Below, piece after piece: positions 2,918 through 24,648 of a stretch of DNA of 64,000 nt. The first letter of the stretch is position 1. Each line of letters opens with the position of its first letter. Where the stretch lies: contig NZ_AP021889.1 of assembly GCF_011398355.1 (NCBI RefSeq), forward strand, positions 2,232,001-2,296,000, written 5' to 3'. The notes under the pieces were generated by a model, which saw only the letters and a program-made list of their open reading frames with translations, made no database searches and was not told the DNA's origin. The translations under genes were made by a program, and so were the position numbers. The DNA is from Thiosulfatimonas sediminis. GTDB lineage: Bacteria; Pseudomonadota; Gammaproteobacteria; Thiomicrospirales; Thiomicrospiraceae.

Positions 2918-3514
2918 ATGAAAAAAGCTAATCTTAGCTTGCTTGCGAGCGCAGTTCTAGCTGGCTCAATGGTAGCCTCTACTGCTGCAGTTGCTATGGA
3001 TCGCGGCGAAATGCTAGCGAATACTTGTGCCGGCTGTCACGGTCCGGGCGGTATCTCTCATGGTCCGGCTACCCCAAGCATTGCAGGTAATAGCAATACC
3101 TATTTCGTTGAATCAATGGAAGCCTATAAATCAGGTGAGCGTCCTTCAACGATCATGGGTCGAATCGCAAAAGGCTACAGCACGGCAGATTTTGAAGCCA
3201 TGGCAACGTATTTTGCAGCTCAAAAATACATCTCTGCAGAACAGTCTACTGATGCAAGCATGGCAAAAGTTGGCGAGAAGTTGCACGACAAATACTGTGA
3301 AAAATGTCACGCCGAAGCCGGTAAACAGGCTGAAGACGAGTCTGGTTTCCTAGCAGGACAATGGAAGCCTTACCTGCAGTACAACCTACATGACTTTGCT
3401 GTCTCTAAAAATCGTGAAATGCCTAAGAAAATGGCCACTAAACTTAACGAGCTTTATGAGAAACACGGTCAAGAAGGTTTAGATCAACTTGTCGAATTCT
3501 ACGCAACTAAATAA
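2918..3514 (+). CDS. fccA: Diheme cytochrome c subunit of flavocytochrome c sulfide dehydrogenase
   Basis: Electron-accepting subunit of FCSD in the periplasm. It has a Sec signal peptide ending near AVA (residue 26) and two class I heme sites, CAGCH (C37) and CEKCH (C127), each in its own domain. This matches the diheme FccA of Allochromatium-type enzymes, unlike the two monoheme versions further on. A strong ribosome site (GAGGAGGAG) precedes the ATG, and the flavoprotein gene follows after 17 bases. The first domain (ERPSTIMGRIAKGYS) resembles the monoheme paralogs. Confidence 0.88.
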   Translation: MKKANLSLLASAVLAGSMVASTAAVAMDRGEMLANTCAGCHGPGGISHGPATPSIAGNSNTYFVESMEAYKSGERPSTIMGRIAKGYSTADFEAMATYFAAQKYISAEQSTDASMAKVGEKLHDKYCEKCHAEAGKQAEDESGFLAGQWKPYLQYNLHDFAVSKNREMPKKMATKLNELYEKHGQEGLDQLVEFYATK

Positions 3515-3531: not shown

Positions 3532-4833
3532 ATGACTAATATTTCAAGACGTAACCTTCTTAAAGCGTCGGCTGCCGGTGCGGCAGGTGTTGCAGCAGCA
3601 GGCATCTCAGCAAAAGCGATGGCGAAAAGCAACGGTAAACGCGTTGTGATCGTAGGTGGTGGTATCGGTGGTGCAACCACGGCACAATACCTAAAGAAAA
3701 TGGATCCATCTATCGATGTAACCCTAGTTGAATACAACAAAGATTACTACACCTGTTTTATGTCAAACGAAGTTATCGGTGGTAACCGCGACATCAAATC
3801 GATTCAATTTGGTTATGACAAACTGCAAGCCAAAGGAATCAAAGTCGTTCTTGATACCGTTACCGATATCGATGCAAAAGGCCAAACAGTAAAAACCAAA
3901 GGCGGTAAATCACTTCCTTATGACCGTTGTATCGTTTCTCCAGGTGTTGATTACAAATGGGAAGCTATCGAAGGCTTTAACGCTGAAGTTGCTGCCAATA
4001 GCATTCCTCACGCATGGAAAGCAGGTCCGCAAACTAAATTGCTACGTAAGCAACTAGAAGAGATGAAAGACGGTGGTACAGTGGTTGTTGTTGCACCACC
4101 AAACCCATTCCGCTGCCCTCCTGGACCTTACGAGCGTGTATCGCAAATTGCTGCATACCTAAAAGAAAACAAGCCAAAGTCTAAAATCGTTGTTTTAGAT
4201 CCAAAGCCAAAATTCTCTAAGTTCGGTCTATTCATGGACGGCTGGAAACGTCACTACGGGTACGGTACTGACAGCAGCATGATCACTTGGATCAACTCTG
4301 AAAACGGTGGTGCGGTATCAGCCGTTGACGTAGCGTCTAAAACCGTTACAGCAAAAGCAGGTAAATTCACGGGTGACGTAGTCAACATCATCCCACCTCA
4401 AAAAGCAGGCAAAATTGCGTTCACCGCTGGTCTAACCAATGAGTCTGGTTGGTGTCCTGTTGATCACAAAACGTTTGAATCGACCATTCACAAAAACATT
4501 CACGTTGTGGGTGATTCTTCAATCGCTGCACCAATGCCGAAGTCTGGATATGCAGCCAACTCACAAGCGAAAGTTTGTGCGGCAGCCGTGGCTTCATTGC
4601 TAAACGGAACGACAATGGTTGAGCCTTCATGGGTCAATACTTGTTATTCTGTTATCGCTCCAGGTAAGGACGGTATCTCTGTTGCAATGGTTTATGCTTA
4701 TAAAGATGGCAAAATCGTTAAAGTTGAAGGTTCTGGTGGTCTTACTGGTGCTTACGATGCCGAGCTACGTAAACGTGAAGTTCTTTACGCGCACTCATGG
4801 TTCGAAAACATTACTGCGGATACTTTCGGTTAA
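3532..4833 (+). CDS. fccB: Flavocytochrome c sulfide dehydrogenase, flavoprotein subunit (copy 1)
   Basis: Oxidises sulfide in the periplasm and passes electrons to the FccA heme. A canonical twin-arginine signal (SRRNLLK, residues 5-11, cleavage near AMA) is followed by the dinucleotide-binding motif VVIVGGGIGGATT (38-50). The Cys in YYTCFMSNEV (C75) corresponds to the residue that covalently binds FAD in Allochromatium FccB. C195 (PFRCPPGPYER) and C371 (VNTCYSV) correspond to its redox disulfide. At 433 aa it is full length. It is paired with the diheme fccA just upstream. Confidence 0.93.
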   Translation: MTNISRRNLLKASAAGAAGVAAAGISAKAMAKSNGKRVVIVGGGIGGATTAQYLKKMDPSIDVTLVEYNKDYYTCFMSNEVIGGNRDIKSIQFGYDKLQAKGIKVVLDTVTDIDAKGQTVKTKGGKSLPYDRCIVSPGVDYKWEAIEGFNAEVAANSIPHAWKAGPQTKLLRKQLEEMKDGGTVVVVAPPNPFRCPPGPYERVSQIAAYLKENKPKSKIVVLDPKPKFSKFGLFMDGWKRHYGYGTDSSMITWINSENGGAVSAVDVASKTVTAKAGKFTGDVVNIIPPQKAGKIAFTAGLTNESGWCPVDHKTFESTIHKNIHVVGDSSIAAPMPKSGYAANSQAKVCAAAVASLLNGTTMVEPSWVNTCYSVIAPGKDGISVAMVYAYKDGKIVKVEGSGGLTGAYDAELRKREVLYAHSWFENITADTFG

Positions 4834-4896: not shown

Positions 4897-6201
4897 CTAT
4901 GCGTTCCAAATATCCATGGTGATCGATTTATACCAAGCACGAGCATAATCAGCCTCCATCTTACGTTCTTGCAAGCTAGCACTCATCGGCGACACGCCGC
5001 CGGCACCTTTGATTTCAGCGATACGGTTATCACGATTTTCATAGACTCCGACGATGCTGATACCCCAATCCTTGCTAACCAAGCTGTAGCAGGTGTTGAC
5101 GTTGCGGGTTTGCGGCATCGGTAAATCACGTAAAGCAGACACGATGGCTGCTGCGCACATCTTCCCCTGACTGGATGCCGAATGCCCTGATTTTGGCATG
5201 GCACCGGCTATCGCCGAATCACCGATGACATAAATATCTTTCTGTAAGCTCGACTCAAAGGTATCTTGATTAACCGGACACCATCCTGTCGCATCAGTCA
5301 AACCGGCTGTGAACGCGATTTTGCCCGCTTTCTGCGCTGGAATAACGTTAATCACATCCGCAGTAACCGTATCAAAATCACTGTAAACGGTTTTATTGGC
5401 GACGTCGATTTTACTGACCGTTGCGCCATCTTGCGCGCCGTACCACTCAATCATTTCACCGTACAACTCTTGCCAGCCCTGATGGAACAAAGCCTGTTTG
5501 GAAAACTTGGTTTTGGGGTCCAAAATCATAATCGTTGCGCGCGGATTATGTTCTTTAAAATAGGCCGCAATCATCGAGATTCGCTCGTAAGGTCCCGGCG
5601 CACAACGGTATGGATTGGGCGGCGCAACCATTAAAAAGCGACCACCTTGCGGCATCTCTTTAATCTGTTTTGCCAATAACTCGGTTTGCGTCCCGGCCTG
5701 CCAAGCGTGCGGCAGAATTTGCGCGGCCTCTTTCGAATAGCCGTCAATCGCATCATATTTAAAGTCGATGCCCGGAGAAACCACCAGTTTGTCGTAACTG
5801 AGCACATCGCCATTCTCTAAGGTTACGGTCTTACTCTGTGCATCCACCGCCGTTGCCATTTGATGAATAACGCGCACCTGATGCTTAGCGATCAAATTCG
5901 TATAGTCATGCGTTAAAGACTGCACATCCACCAACCCAGCCAAATACCAATTCGATCCCGGACAAGTCATGTAGGTGGTTTTTGGCTCAATCAAGGTCAC
6001 CTCGATTTCTGCATCAAAACGTTTCAAATACTTTGCCACGGTTGCACCGCCAAAACCACCGCCGATTACAACCACTTTTTGTACTCTGGACGCCTTAACC
6101 GTGCTGTTATGGGAACAGCCGTGCAAAGCGCCGATTAAAGGGAAAGAGATCCCACTTGCCGCTAACCCTTTAATTAAACTACGTCGATTTAATGTGTTCA
6201 T
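4897..6201 (-). CDS. fccB: Flavocytochrome c sulfide dehydrogenase, flavoprotein subunit (copy 2), possible Tat lipoprotein
   Basis: An FCSD flavoprotein with an Rossmann motif (VVVIGGGFGGATV, about 43-55), FAD-linking Cys in YMTCPGSNWYLAG (C80) and the disulfide pair C200 (YRCAPGPYER) and C371 (NTCYSLV). The segment after the FAD Cys (CPGSNWYLAG) differs from copy 1 (CFMSNEVIGG), marking another subclass shared with copy 3. The signal has RRSLIK (6-11) and ends LHGC (C29, Ser at +2), which resembles a lipobox, although His at -2 is unusual. It follows the monoheme fccA by 20 bases. Confidence 0.92.
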   Translation of the reverse strand: MNTLNRRSLIKGLAASGISFPLIGALHGCSHNSTVKASRVQKVVVIGGGFGGATVAKYLKRFDAEIEVTLIEPKTTYMTCPGSNWYLAGLVDVQSLTHDYTNLIAKHQVRVIHQMATAVDAQSKTVTLENGDVLSYDKLVVSPGIDFKYDAIDGYSKEAAQILPHAWQAGTQTELLAKQIKEMPQGGRFLMVAPPNPYRCAPGPYERISMIAAYFKEHNPRATIMILDPKTKFSKQALFHQGWQELYGEMIEWYGAQDGATVSKIDVANKTVYSDFDTVTADVINVIPAQKAGKIAFTAGLTDATGWCPVNQDTFESSLQKDIYVIGDSAIAGAMPKSGHSASSQGKMCAAAIVSALRDLPMPQTRNVNTCYSLVSKDWGISIVGVYENRDNRIAEIKGAGGVSPMSASLQERKMEADYARAWYKSITMDIWNA

Positions 6202-6221
6202 ATTCTCATCATCCTGCGAGT

Positions 6222-6548
6222 TTACGGTTTCAATGAACCTAAATAGGCTGCGATTGCGTCAATGTCGTCATCGCTATAACCCAATAGATGGCGTTGCATG
6301 ATGGTAGTCGCACGCTCACCCGACTTCATCGCCTTAAGCTGTTGAGCCATCATTTCGGCCGGATATCCGGCAAGAGGCGGAATCGCTCCGCCAGAATACT
6401 GCCCTTCGGCACCGTGACACTGAAAACAGGTCGTCGCCCACAACTCCGCCTTACTGATTGGCTGTAAACCTCCCGACTGTGCCATCGCCTGCTGTGCGAC
6501 AGCCATCGAAGACAAGGCTGCTGTGAGCATGATGATTTTTACTTTCAT
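6222..6548 (-). CDS. fccA: Monoheme cytochrome c subunit of FCSD (copy 2)
   Basis: A periplasmic class I cytochrome of 108 aa. It has a signal peptide ending near AMAQ, one heme site CFQCH, and a downstream Met (ATTIMQRHLLGYSDDD) that can be the axial ligand. I chose the ATG at 6548 because TAGGAATC lies just upstream and it leaves a normal signal peptide; a longer frame to 6629 would add an unlikely extension. It is the partner of the fccB that follows on the same strand, and is very similar to the copy on the other side of the intergenic region. Confidence 0.9.
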   Translation of the reverse strand: MKVKIIMLTAALSSMAVAQQAMAQSGGLQPISKAELWATTCFQCHGAEGQYSGGAIPPLAGYPAEMMAQQLKAMKSGERATTIMQRHLLGYSDDDIDAIAAYLGSLKP

Positions 6549-7169
6549 TCTGATTCCTAACTCATTTTGCCCAATACACAAAAGCACTTGACGTCGTACA
6601 AACCCGACAACAAATACCAAAAAGAACAAAATCCTCTTACATGCACATAAGAATTACTAATAAAAAATTCCTTGAAGACTAGATAAAAAAAACTTATAGA
6701 TGGATTATCGGATTATCTAGCAAGACATGGCGTGTATATCAACAGCGAAAAAAAACAACTTTAAAGTCAAATAGTTACATATTATTAAGAACATCGTATT
6801 TTGAATGGATTCTTTGTCTGACTAAACAAAAAACAATTTTTCTCGGAACAATTCCCTCACAGATTGCACTCATTTAATTTTTGTATCTATGCATAATTTA
6901 TTATTATTAAAAACAGGAAAAACCCAACTAAGTAAAGGGTCTAAAGAGTCAAAATTATATACATATATCTGGTTTTACCGCCATTTATTGACAATTAAGT
7001 CGCCATTAATATTAGGTTAAACTTAAATAAAGAGGGCTAATTAGATGTAATAGAATTATCTATTAGAAATTCGCGCTCGTAATTGGAGAATAGCCTGAGT
7101 TTGCAGAAACAAGTCCAACGAAACAAAAACTGCAACTGAGAATAAGAAGACTACTCAATAGAGGTTTTT
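6549..7169. promoter_or_regulatory. AT-rich divergent control region between two monoheme fccAB operons
   Basis: These 620 bases hold no convincing gene. They separate two similar sulfide dehydrogenase operons transcribed outward, so both promoters should lie here. Visible elements are a spaced inverted repeat CTAGATAA (6679-6686) / TTATCTAG (6713-6720), a compact dyad AATAGA-ATTA-TCTATT (7049-7064), and a sigma-70-like promoter for the right-hand operon (listed separately). Such a length suggests regulator binding or long leaders. Confidence 0.6.
6988..7015 (+). promoter_or_regulatory. Candidate sigma-70 promoter for fccAB copy 3
   Basis: TTGACA (6988-6993), a 16-base spacer and TATTAG (7010-7015). 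It implies a leader of about 150 bases before the cytochrome start at 7170, containing the dyad at 7049-7064. The -35 is perfect and the -10 is moderate. Confidence 0.4.
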
Positions 7170-7490
7170 ATGAAAAAAACACAATCACGCCTTGCGAAGA
7201 TGCTGGCTATTGCTGCTTTAGCGTCACTTTCGCTATCAGCTCATGCGGGAGATATCACTAACGCAGAATTATCTGCAACCACCTGTTTCCAGTGCCATGG
7301 TGCCGAAGGTAAATCAGCGGGCGGCGCAATTCCGCCACTAGCCGGTTACCCTGAAAAAATCATGGTACAACAGCTGCTTGATTTTAAATCCGGTAAGCGT
7401 CCATCTACTGTTATGGGTCGTCATATGAAAGGGTATTCCGATGACGAAATTCGTGCGATTGCTCAATATCTTGGCAGTCTAAAACCTTAA
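7170..7490 (+). CDS. fccA: Monoheme cytochrome c subunit of FCSD (copy 3)
   Basis: A 106-aa periplasmic cytochrome with a signal peptide (to about AHAG), one CFQCH heme site and a probable axial Met in STVMGRHMKGYSDDE. An AGAGG ribosome site precedes the ATG. It is nearly parallel in sequence to copy 2 (GGAIPPLAGYP, YLGSLKP ending), so the two operons arose by duplication. The fccB gene follows after about 18 bases. Confidence 0.92.
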   Translation: MKKTQSRLAKMLAIAALASLSLSAHAGDITNAELSATTCFQCHGAEGKSAGGAIPPLAGYPEKIMVQQLLDFKSGKRPSTVMGRHMKGYSDDEIRAIAQYLGSLKP

Positions 7491-7508
7491 TTAACAGTGG
7501 AGCATATT

Positions 7509-8840
7509 ATGTTAAAACGTAGATCTTTAATTAAAGCAATGGCGGCCACCGGATTTGGTGGGACTCTTATTGCCGCGCTTCCAGGCTGTTCTCTGCCTAA
7601 AGTACCTATGCTAGGTGAAATGGGCGCAAAAACTCGTAAGGCTGGTGAGCCTGCACATGTTGTCGTTATTGGTGGCGGTTTCGGTGGTGCATCAGTTGCT
7701 AAATACCTTAAACGTTTCGATAGTTCGGTAAACGTCACCCTGATCGAACCTAAACAGAACTACATGACGTGTCCTGGTTCTAACTGGTACCTAGCCGGTT
7801 TGGTTGATGCAAAATTCATCACTCACAACTATGACGCACTGAAAACAAAACACGGTGTCAGCGTAATTCACTCAATGGTAACGAAAGTTAGTCCATCTGC
7901 GATGCAAGTCACCTTGAAAGATGGCCGCGTTCTTGATTATGACCGTCTTGTTGTTTCTCCAGGTATCGACTTCAATTACGATGCGATTGAAGGTTATTCG
8001 GAAGCCAACATCAATGACATTCCGCACGCTTACCAAGCCGGTCCGCAAACGGAAATTCTGTATAAGCAACTGCGTGAGATGCCACAAGGCGGTACTTTCG
8101 TTATGTGTCCTCCTGGTAACCCGTTCCGTTGCCCTCCAGGACCTTACGAGCGTGCTTCAATGGTTGCTGACTTCTTCAAGCGTGAAAACCCAACCGCGAA
8201 AATTGTTATCTTGGATGCCAAAGAAAAGTTCTCTAAACAAGGTCTATTCCAAGAAGGTTGGGCACAACTTTACGGCGATATGATTGAATGGATTCCAGCG
8301 TCTTCAGGCGGTAAAGTATTGCGCGTTGACGCGGCGACCAAAACCGTCTTCACTGACTTTGGTGAGCACAAAGCAGATGTATTAAACATCATCCCACCGC
8401 AGAAAGCCGGTAAGATTGCGTTCACAGCAGGTCTAACCAATGAAAAAGGCTGGTGCCCAATCAACCAAAAAACCTTTGAATCGACGATTCACCCTAACAT
8501 CCATGTTATCGGTGACTCTTCTATCTCAGGTAAAATGCCTAAATCGGGTCACTCAGCAGCCAGCCAAGGTAAAATGTGCGCAGCGGCAATCGTTTCGCTA
8601 CTCAATGGCAAAGACGTTCCAGTCGGCAAAAACGTTAACACCTGCTACAGCTTAGTTAGCGCAGACTACGGTATTTCCGTTGCTGCAGTCTATGTGTTGA
8701 ATGCCGAAGGCCAAATCGTTGGCGTGAAAGACGCTGGTGGTGTAAGTCCGAAAGGTGCTGACACAGCCTTCCGTCTAATGGAAGCGAAGTACGCTGACGG
8801 TTGGTATAAAGCAATCGCAATGGATCTTTGGAAGAGCTAA
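7509..8840 (+). CDS. fccB: Flavocytochrome c sulfide dehydrogenase, flavoprotein subunit (copy 3), possible Tat lipoprotein
   Basis: A third FCSD flavoprotein. I start it at ATG 7509 because GTGGAG just upstream is the ribosome site; the in-frame GTG at 7497 is part of that site. The signal has KRRSLIK (residues 3-9) and ends LPGC (C27, Ser at +2), a possible lipobox with an unusual Pro. Rossmann motif VVVIGGGFGGASV (51-63), FAD-linking C88 in YMTCPGSNWYLAG, and the disulfide cysteines in FRCPPGPYER and NTCYSLV are all present. It resembles copy 2 more than copy 1. Confidence 0.93.
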   Translation: MLKRRSLIKAMAATGFGGTLIAALPGCSLPKVPMLGEMGAKTRKAGEPAHVVVIGGGFGGASVAKYLKRFDSSVNVTLIEPKQNYMTCPGSNWYLAGLVDAKFITHNYDALKTKHGVSVIHSMVTKVSPSAMQVTLKDGRVLDYDRLVVSPGIDFNYDAIEGYSEANINDIPHAYQAGPQTEILYKQLREMPQGGTFVMCPPGNPFRCPPGPYERASMVADFFKRENPTAKIVILDAKEKFSKQGLFQEGWAQLYGDMIEWIPASSGGKVLRVDAATKTVFTDFGEHKADVLNIIPPQKAGKIAFTAGLTNEKGWCPINQKTFESTIHPNIHVIGDSSISGKMPKSGHSAASQGKMCAAAIVSLLNGKDVPVGKNVNTCYSLVSADYGISVAAVYVLNAEGQIVGVKDAGGVSPKGADTAFRLMEAKYADGWYKAIAMDLWKS

Positions 8841-24162: not shown

Positions 24163-24648
24163 CTAAGTCGGTGACGACTCTTTGCGAAAGAAAAGTTCGT
24201 GAACAATTAATAAGATTGCCCCCAAACTGATCGCAATATCGGCAATATTAAAAGTCGCGTAATGCCAGGTACCAATATAAAAGTCAATAAAGTCCGTCAC
24301 ACGTCCTTCTAAGATACGGTCAATGACATTGCCAATTGCCCCACCAATGACCAGATTCAATGCGAGACTTTCAGTGGTCAACTTCGCCGGTAATTTTTTC
24401 AACCACCAGAGCATAAAAGCGGTCATTACAAATGCCAAGCCAACAAAAAACCAGCGCTGCCAACCACCAGAATCGGCCAGAAAACTAAATGCTGCGCCAT
24501 AGTTATACGCCAGCGTCCAATTCAAGTGGTCGATCACCGGCACCGGCTCACCAAAGGTTAAATGCGTGACCGCCAAATATTTAGTGATATGGTCGATGAC
24601 GATGACCAACACAGCAATCCATAACGTTTTTAACGCGGTAGAAGCCAT
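24163..24648 (-). CDS. lspA: LspA, prolipoprotein signal peptidase (signal peptidase II)
   Basis: An inner-membrane aspartyl protease that removes the signal peptide of lipid-modified prolipoproteins. It has four membrane helices, and both catalytic Asp motifs are present: GGAIGNVIDR and the conserved FNIADIAIS. At 161 aa it has normal length. GGGAAG lies 4 bases before the ATG. It follows ileS on the same strand, the usual order, but here 322 bases and two hairpins separate them, so it may have its own promoter. Confidence 0.96.
   Translation of the reverse strand: MASTALKTLWIAVLVIVIDHITKYLAVTHLTFGEPVPVIDHLNWTLAYNYGAAFSFLADSGGWQRWFFVGLAFVMTAFMLWWLKKLPAKLTTESLALNLVIGGAIGNVIDRILEGRVTDFIDFYIGTWHYATFNIADIAISLGAILLIVHELFFRKESSPT

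Follow-up and report, generated by a model that had tools for sequence, protein, structure and literature searches.

Two of three clustered FccB flavoproteins of Thiosulfatimonas sediminis are probable Tat-exported lipoproteins

The window analyzed here is a stretch of 64,000 nucleotides (positions 2,232,001 to 2,296,000 of contig NZ_AP021889.1) from the one-contig, 2.72-Mb genome of Thiosulfatimonas sediminis. It carries a cluster of three gene pairs for the flavocytochrome c sulfide dehydrogenase FccAB, in each of which the gene of the cytochrome subunit, FccA, lies directly upstream of the gene of the flavoprotein subunit, FccB. The subject of this report is the N-terminus of FccB copies 2 and 3, where a signal for twin-arginine translocation (Tat) ends at a Cys placed as in a lipobox, i.e., the sequence at which a lipoprotein would be lipidated and cleaved. 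The nearest named relatives of these fcc genes are those of Thiomicrorhabdus species, among the best 80 of 322 loci. The three pairs are located as follows (window coordinates throughout, unless the genome is named):

4897-6201, minus strand: FccB copy 2, flavoprotein subunit, 434 amino acids; Pfam FCSD_central 163 bits, FCSD-flav_bind 88 bits
6222-6551, minus strand: FccA partner of copy 2, with one CxxCH heme site and an ordinary AMA signal peptidase I site
7509-8840, plus strand: FccB copy 3, flavoprotein subunit, predicted Tat lipoprotein; Pfam FCSD_central 167 bits
7170-7490, plus strand: FccA partner of copy 3, with one CxxCH and an ordinary AHA signal peptidase I site
3532-4833, plus strand: FccB copy 1, the contrast case, whose Tat signal has an AMA signal peptidase I site and no lipobox
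2918-3514, plus strand: FccA partner of copy 1, also a contrast case, with two CxxCH heme sites

All three FccB copies matched the FCSD central and C-terminal flavin-binding families (PF21706 and PF09242) far above the cut-off. Two more distant FccB-like genes, both without a lipobox, are found at positions 1978353-1979648 and 2473136-2474266 of the genome. In Thiomicrorhabdus marina, a cultured relative, the three FccB genes are arranged as in this cluster, with regard to both order and orientation.

The N-terminus of copy 2 reads MNTLNRRSLIKGLAASGISFPLIGALHGC followed by SHNST, and its Tat signal ends L-H-G-C29-S. That of copy 3, read from the ATG at 7509, is MLKRRSLIKAMAATGFGGTLIAALPGC followed by SLPKV, and here the signal ends L-P-G-C27-S. 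This ATG, with a GGAG upstream, is the preferred start of copy 3, and the GTG at 7497 given in the list of open reading frames (ORFs) is less likely; the Cys of copy 3 is residue 27 because the ATG was taken as the start. In both copies the twin-arginine motif (NRRSLIK in copy 2 and KRRSLIK in copy 3) precedes an uncharged hydrophobic stretch, and both show the lipobox features of a Cys at +1, a residue of the Gly, Ala or Ser type at -1 and an aliphatic residue at -3, with Ser as the +2 residue. Inspection of the sequences found no AxA site after the Cys in either copy. The signal of copy 1 reads SAKAMA↓KSNG and holds no Cys. Direct reading thus bore out the preliminary description of this DNA, which had the two signals ending at LHGC (C29) and LPGC (C27), each followed by Ser, and had given copy 1, which lies just beyond the positions 4897-8840 of that description, an ordinary AMA cleavage site. 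The parts of the two N-termini are as follows:

6118-6201, minus strand: putative class II twin-arginine signal peptide of copy 2, residues 1-28 (NRRSLIK...LHG), from direct reading and the alignment of the 18-gene clade described below
6115-6117, minus strand: codon of Cys29 of copy 2, the predicted lipid-modified mature N-terminus; Cys in 17/18 clade genes
6076-6114, minus strand: variable linker of copy 2, residues 30-42, from Cys29 to the first Rossmann strand; 13 residues, no AxA
7509-7586, plus strand: putative class II twin-arginine signal peptide of copy 3, residues 1-26 (KRRSLIK...LPG), from direct reading and the clade alignment
7587-7589, plus strand: codon of Cys27 of copy 3, the predicted lipid-modified mature N-terminus, from direct reading and the clade alignment
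7590-7658, plus strand: linker of copy 3, residues 28-50, after Cys27; 23 residues, with a predicted local distance difference test score (pLDDT) below 50 over residues 14-39

The two signals were compared with those of other FccB proteins in a sample that consisted of the best 80 of the 322 loci found with copies 2 and 3 as queries, from named genomes, together with 30 loci and 40 stretches chosen from part of the listed matches in 62 genomes of the same family; this sample favours close relatives, and the counts given below are not population frequencies. From 188 ORF hits, those below 250 bits were left out, identical sequences were merged and five sequences were set aside, and the 147 distinct N-termini used here are those with a twin-arginine motif and a Rossmann strand, near-copies included. 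Among the sequences set aside, L096, L111 3-944 and L113 3-950 are cut-off genes, while L107 and L066 are complete and by eye have no Cys; if these two are included, the lipobox count becomes 81/149. A lipobox-like Cys was observed where the hydrophobic stretch ends in 81/147 N-termini with a filter that allowed Gly, Ala or Ser before the Cys, and these 81 rows are related by descent, so that they do not represent 81 independent events. The residue at -1 was Gly in 63 of them and Ala in 18, and the residue at +2 was Ala (33), Ser (27), Gly (10), Glu (4), Val (3), Thr (2) or Gln (2), and never Asp. In 80 of the 81 rows the Cys lay 17-23 residues past the start of the twin-arginine motif as placed by the script, and the linker from the Cys to the domain measured 8-24 residues (median 12). 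From the start codon up to the Rossmann strand, any other Cys was rare (3 among 5654 other residues in the 147 N-termini). An AxA between the 17th residue past the RR and the domain was present in 50/66 Cys-less rows vs 18/81 lipobox rows. Many relatives carry textbook lipoboxes (LTGC, LSGC, LVGC, LAGC and LAAC), and for this reason the HGC and PGC of copies 2 and 3 resemble a genuine lipobox in variant form rather than accidents. Two FccB sequences of the copy 1 type (L090_46 and L093_51, from genomes G050 and G025) read ATGC and then SLA↓S, next to a two-heme FccA; they are ambiguous between signal peptidase I and II, and were counted among the lipobox-like rows.

A quick tree was computed from the mature domain only (LG+G4), i.e., without the signal region, to keep the signal from influencing the topology; branch support was by the Shimodaira-Hasegawa-like approximate likelihood ratio test (SH-aLRT) only, and the tree has several long-branched rows and some deep forks that are not settled. 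The smallest starred clade that holds both copy 2 and copy 3 (SH-aLRT 96) has 19 rows and 18 distinct genes, L006_2 having been dropped as the same gene as L087, with an identical N-terminus. Leu at -3 and Gly or Ala at -1 were found in 18/18 of these genes, and the Cys, whose conservation in homologs the preliminary description had proposed as a check, was kept in 17/18. The -2 residue, in contrast, was Ser in five genes, Gln in four, Pro in four, Thr in three, and Asn and His in one each. Variability was also seen around the Cys, which in copy 2 amounted to 1.6-2.9 bits at signal residues 18-25 and 27 and to 1.6-2.8 bits at residues 30-32; RR, K11 and G17, all in the first half of this signal, are conserved as well. 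Since the -2 position drifts freely in the clade, His and Pro appear to be tolerated there in this family. The earlier remark that they are unusual at -2 hence holds with respect to the general lipobox pattern, which is fitted by 72 of the 81 lipobox rows and not by copies 2 and 3, but it does not hold within their own clade. The alignment suggests the pattern expected for a signal peptidase II substrate, with Leu, the small residue and the Cys kept, a free -2 position and a variable linker, and not the one expected for a structural Cys. Over the whole tree the lipobox trait changed about 12 times, with 10 changes forced by starred branches; the mean for shuffled traits was 48.5, and 0/500 shuffles gave a value as low.

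A model of copy 3 built from 28 sequences had a mean pLDDT of 88.7, and the values below 50 at residues 14-39 cover Cys27 and the first part of the linker, which is consistent with a flexible tether. When compared with 5n1t (Thioalkalivibrio paradoxus), 3vrd (Thermochromatium tepidum) and 1fcd (Allochromatium vinosum), the model gave template-modelling (TM) scores by target of 0.96-0.98, with 5n1t as the best Foldseek match (TM 0.98 by target), so that copy 3 has the same fold as these proteins; the closest solved structures to copy 2 were 5n1t and 1fcd. As aligned, the N-terminus of 5n1t has no lipobox Cys, unlike copies 2 and 3. The cysteines of the FAD site and the disulfide (C88, C208 and C379 of copy 3) were invariant in the 28 sequences, with a lipobox and Cys-less alike, and the corresponding cysteines of copy 2 align with 1fcd. 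In A. vinosum flavocytochrome c the redox disulfide is Cys161-Cys337. Cys42, the residue with covalent FAD in the same enzyme, is named in PMC3504083.

The cytochrome partners were sorted by their number of hemes in the 140 rows with an uncut FccA. FccA had one heme in 74 and two hemes in 2 of the rows with a lipobox FccB, and one heme in 48 and two in 16 of the rows with a non-lipobox FccB. This is an association only, and heme number was dropped as independent support, with just two changes on the tree and too few informative independent pairs. No convincing FccA lipobox was found among the 76 rows with a lipobox FccB and an FccA (two automatic hits were rejected by eye). At two loci where FccB has none, FccA itself carries a convincing lipobox and a Pro/Ala-rich linker, namely VVAGGC in the one-heme FccA of L047 and LVTGC in the two-heme FccA of L076. 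A further six automatic FccA hits, four of them with a non-lipobox FccB, proved by eye to be a Cys within the hydrophobic stretch or an artefact of the start site. It is possible that the lipid anchor moved between the subunits in L047 and L076, and these two cases are a lead and not a rule.

The genome encodes TatC, Lgt, LolA and a LolC/E-type protein, the latter above the cut-off, and two of the three enzymes of lipoprotein maturation fall within the window:

24190-24618, minus strand: LspA, signal peptidase II, expected to cleave before Cys29 and Cys27; PF01252, 141 bits, the only match found in the genome
42556-43707, minus strand: Lnt, apolipoprotein N-acyltransferase; TIGR00546, 280 bits, above the cut-off

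We consider, with a probability of about 0.88, that FccB copies 2 and 3 are Tat-exported lipoproteins, as the preliminary description had proposed; support comes from the conservation within the clade, the textbook lipoboxes of relatives and the presence of the genes for Tat export and lipoprotein maturation. The two flavoproteins would acquire their fold and their FAD in the cytoplasm before crossing via Tat. Lgt would add diacylglycerol to C29 or C27, LspA would cut before the Cys and Lnt would add the third acyl chain, leaving the folded sulfide dehydrogenase joined to its lipid by a flexible linker (13 residues in copy 2, 23 in copy 3). The one-heme FccA, which would be soluble and exported on its own by means of its ordinary signal peptide, would bind FccB, so that the whole FccAB pair would be held at a membrane, facing the periplasm. 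Electrons would pass from sulfide to FAD, from there to the single heme and then to the cytochrome c pool. Copy 1 and its two-heme FccA would represent the freely diffusing version of the enzyme.

Several observations weigh against this proposal. The general lipobox pattern in its PROSITE form is the yardstick for the -2 position, and the His and Pro of copies 2 and 3 fall outside its usual residues. The lipoproteins of the genome itself could not serve as another yardstick for -2 usage, since a scan of 464 kb (the window plus 20 stretches of 20 kb, i.e., 400 kb) gave too few of them, 9 candidates in 408 called genes, copies 2 and 3 included and several doubtful. The Pfam family TAT_signal was listed solely for copy 1 (E 0.001) and not for copies 2 and 3. 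An AxA follows the Cys in 17/81 lipobox rows, where a type I cut is possible, and the Cys is missing in 5/42 rows (L035, L038, L041, L042 and L067) of the clade that holds most Thioalkalivibrio rows and the Ectothiorhodospira rows. Loss of the Cys in close homologs, which the preliminary description had named as refuting evidence, occurs once, in L094, the sole Cys-less gene of the 18; the other 17 keep it. L094 reads LSARAM, with a signal-peptidase-I-type ARA↓M site, and this is the change expected when a protein shifts from signal peptidase II to signal peptidase I. The same replacement bears on an account in which the Tat signals of copies 2 and 3 are of the ordinary kind and signal peptidase I removes them at a site close to the Cys (for example after LHG or LPG, or after VKA in copy 2), which would make the two copies soluble periplasmic proteins with an incidental Cys. 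The -3,-1 rule does not forbid L-x-G or V-K-A, and the 66/147 relatives without a lipobox include copy 1 as well as the 50 with an AxA. However, the Cys is conserved together with Leu(-3) and Gly/Ala(-1) inside a variable stretch, a Cys elsewhere in the N-termini is so scarce, copies 2 and 3 have no AxA after it, and the one close relative that lost it has gained a recognizable type I site; we regard this account as improbable. Even smaller is the chance we assign to a Cys kept for a disulfide or for a metal or heme contact, with the signal peptide as an uncleaved membrane anchor. Conservation of a Cys does not by itself specify its chemistry, and Tat substrates with uncleaved N-terminal anchors exist, e.g., Rieske proteins, but this Cys is missing in copy-1-type and other Cys-less relatives with the same domain, whereas the cysteines for FAD and the disulfide do not vary among the 28 sequences of both sorts; furthermore, a spacing to the domain that ranges as widely as it does is ill-suited to a structural contact, and Gly or Ala stands at -1 in 81/81 rows, as for LspA.

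The membrane to which copies 2 and 3 would be anchored is a separate point. By the +2 rule of Escherichia coli, Ser at +2 directs a lipoprotein to the outer membrane, and by this rule an outer-membrane location is somewhat favoured. Retention in the inner membrane is a variant of the lipoprotein reading, with odds that overlap its own, and we give it a minority, though substantial, share. It agrees with the need of the electrons to reach the respiratory chain of the inner membrane and with the sorting rules for lipoproteins, which differ among bacteria. Also against the outer-membrane route, LolB (PF03550) was not found in this genome, and was above the cut-off in 0/32 Thiomicrorhabdus-type genomes (this one and 31 others of the genus), three of which gave weak matches below it; the E. 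coli control was positive. In this gammaproteobacterial genus LolB is either very divergent or dispensed with. Ser at +2 in both copies and the absence of Asp at +2 from all 81 rows argue against retention, as do the LolA and LolC/E-type genes. According to the review PMC11784454, LolB is confined to gamma- and betaproteobacteria, LolB-less bacteria still make and deliver outer-membrane lipoproteins, and LolA of Caulobacter performs both jobs. IspE, tried as a landmark for LolB, failed, with no IspE above the cut-off in the genome. Three adjoining genes for GHMP-type kinases, like those of the mevalonate pathway, were observed at genome positions 2128373-2130661 (L183, L185-L187); isoprenoids are probably made via the mevalonate route in this genome, because kinases of this type are present and IspE is not above the cut-off.

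The order of a twin-arginine motif and a lipobox is shared with haloarchaeal Tat lipoproteins and with DmsA of Shewanella, which is a lipoprotein. DmsA is listed as an outer-membrane protein in a table of PMC3623810, and PMC2945643 gives, for predicted haloarchaeal Tat lipoproteins, 12-21 residues from the second Arg to the Cys and Ala at -2 in 83.5%. The -2 residue is thus mostly Ala in the haloarchaeal set, whereas it is free in the FccB clade. As for FccB itself, a lipoprotein form has reportedly been in print since 2000, and the flavoprotein of Ectothiorhodospira vacuolata is said to have a lipoprotein-type (class II) signal and to pair with a one-heme cytochrome that has a normal signal. 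NCBI files E. vacuolata under E. shaposhnikovii, and E. shaposhnikovii locus L033 is of this type, with RR...LAAC and a one-heme FccA; its match shows 57% identity with copy 2 across residues 57-432, and 5/5 Ectothiorhodospira loci have LAAC or LSAC and a one-heme FccA. Copies 2 and 3 match this layout, i.e., a lipobox FccB whose one-heme FccA has an ordinary signal, but differ from E. shaposhnikovii in having LHGC and LPGC instead of LAAC and two such pairs beside a two-heme pair in one cluster. LAGC is found in Halothiobacillus locus L050, and Thiobacillus sp. W5 is a relative of Halothiobacillus. By the titles of the respective papers, flavocytochrome c is membrane-bound in E. vacuolata (Kostanjevecki et al. 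2000, J Bacteriol 182:3097) and in Thiobacillus sp. W5 (Visser et al. 1997, Arch Microbiol 167:295), and PMC5744179, which cites Visser 1997, has the one-heme enzyme of a Thiobacillus strain acting as sulfide dehydrogenase. In other papers, the two-heme flavocytochrome c of A. vinosum is soluble (PMC3368242), FccAB is called soluble or periplasmic (PMC12010331, PMC5733100) and the cytochrome genes of A. vinosum are scanned for LXXC motifs (PMC11267869). That scan was the nearest to a discussion of FccB lipoboxes or a family-wide survey of them, neither of which was found in the literature searched, with few subscription papers covered and the sources seen in part. Copies 2 and 3 are probably a well-supported further case of the known membrane-bound one-heme flavocytochrome c, and not new in kind.

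What the genome adds is that it holds both states side by side, one predicted free two-heme pair and two predicted tethered one-heme pairs. The idea that tethering of the sulfide dehydrogenase has been toggled on and off in evolution, and even shifted between the subunits, is put forward tentatively, at a little under even odds. If it is true, the tethered and free pairs may serve different places, e.g., sulfide that reaches the outer membrane vs periplasmic sulfide. If the one-heme FccB of many gammaproteobacterial sulfur oxidisers is tethered, copy number alone would mislead, since the copies would differ in place as well as in heme count. The presence of both forms in one cluster would then offer a simple system in which to study the reason for anchoring a periplasmic dehydrogenase to a membrane.

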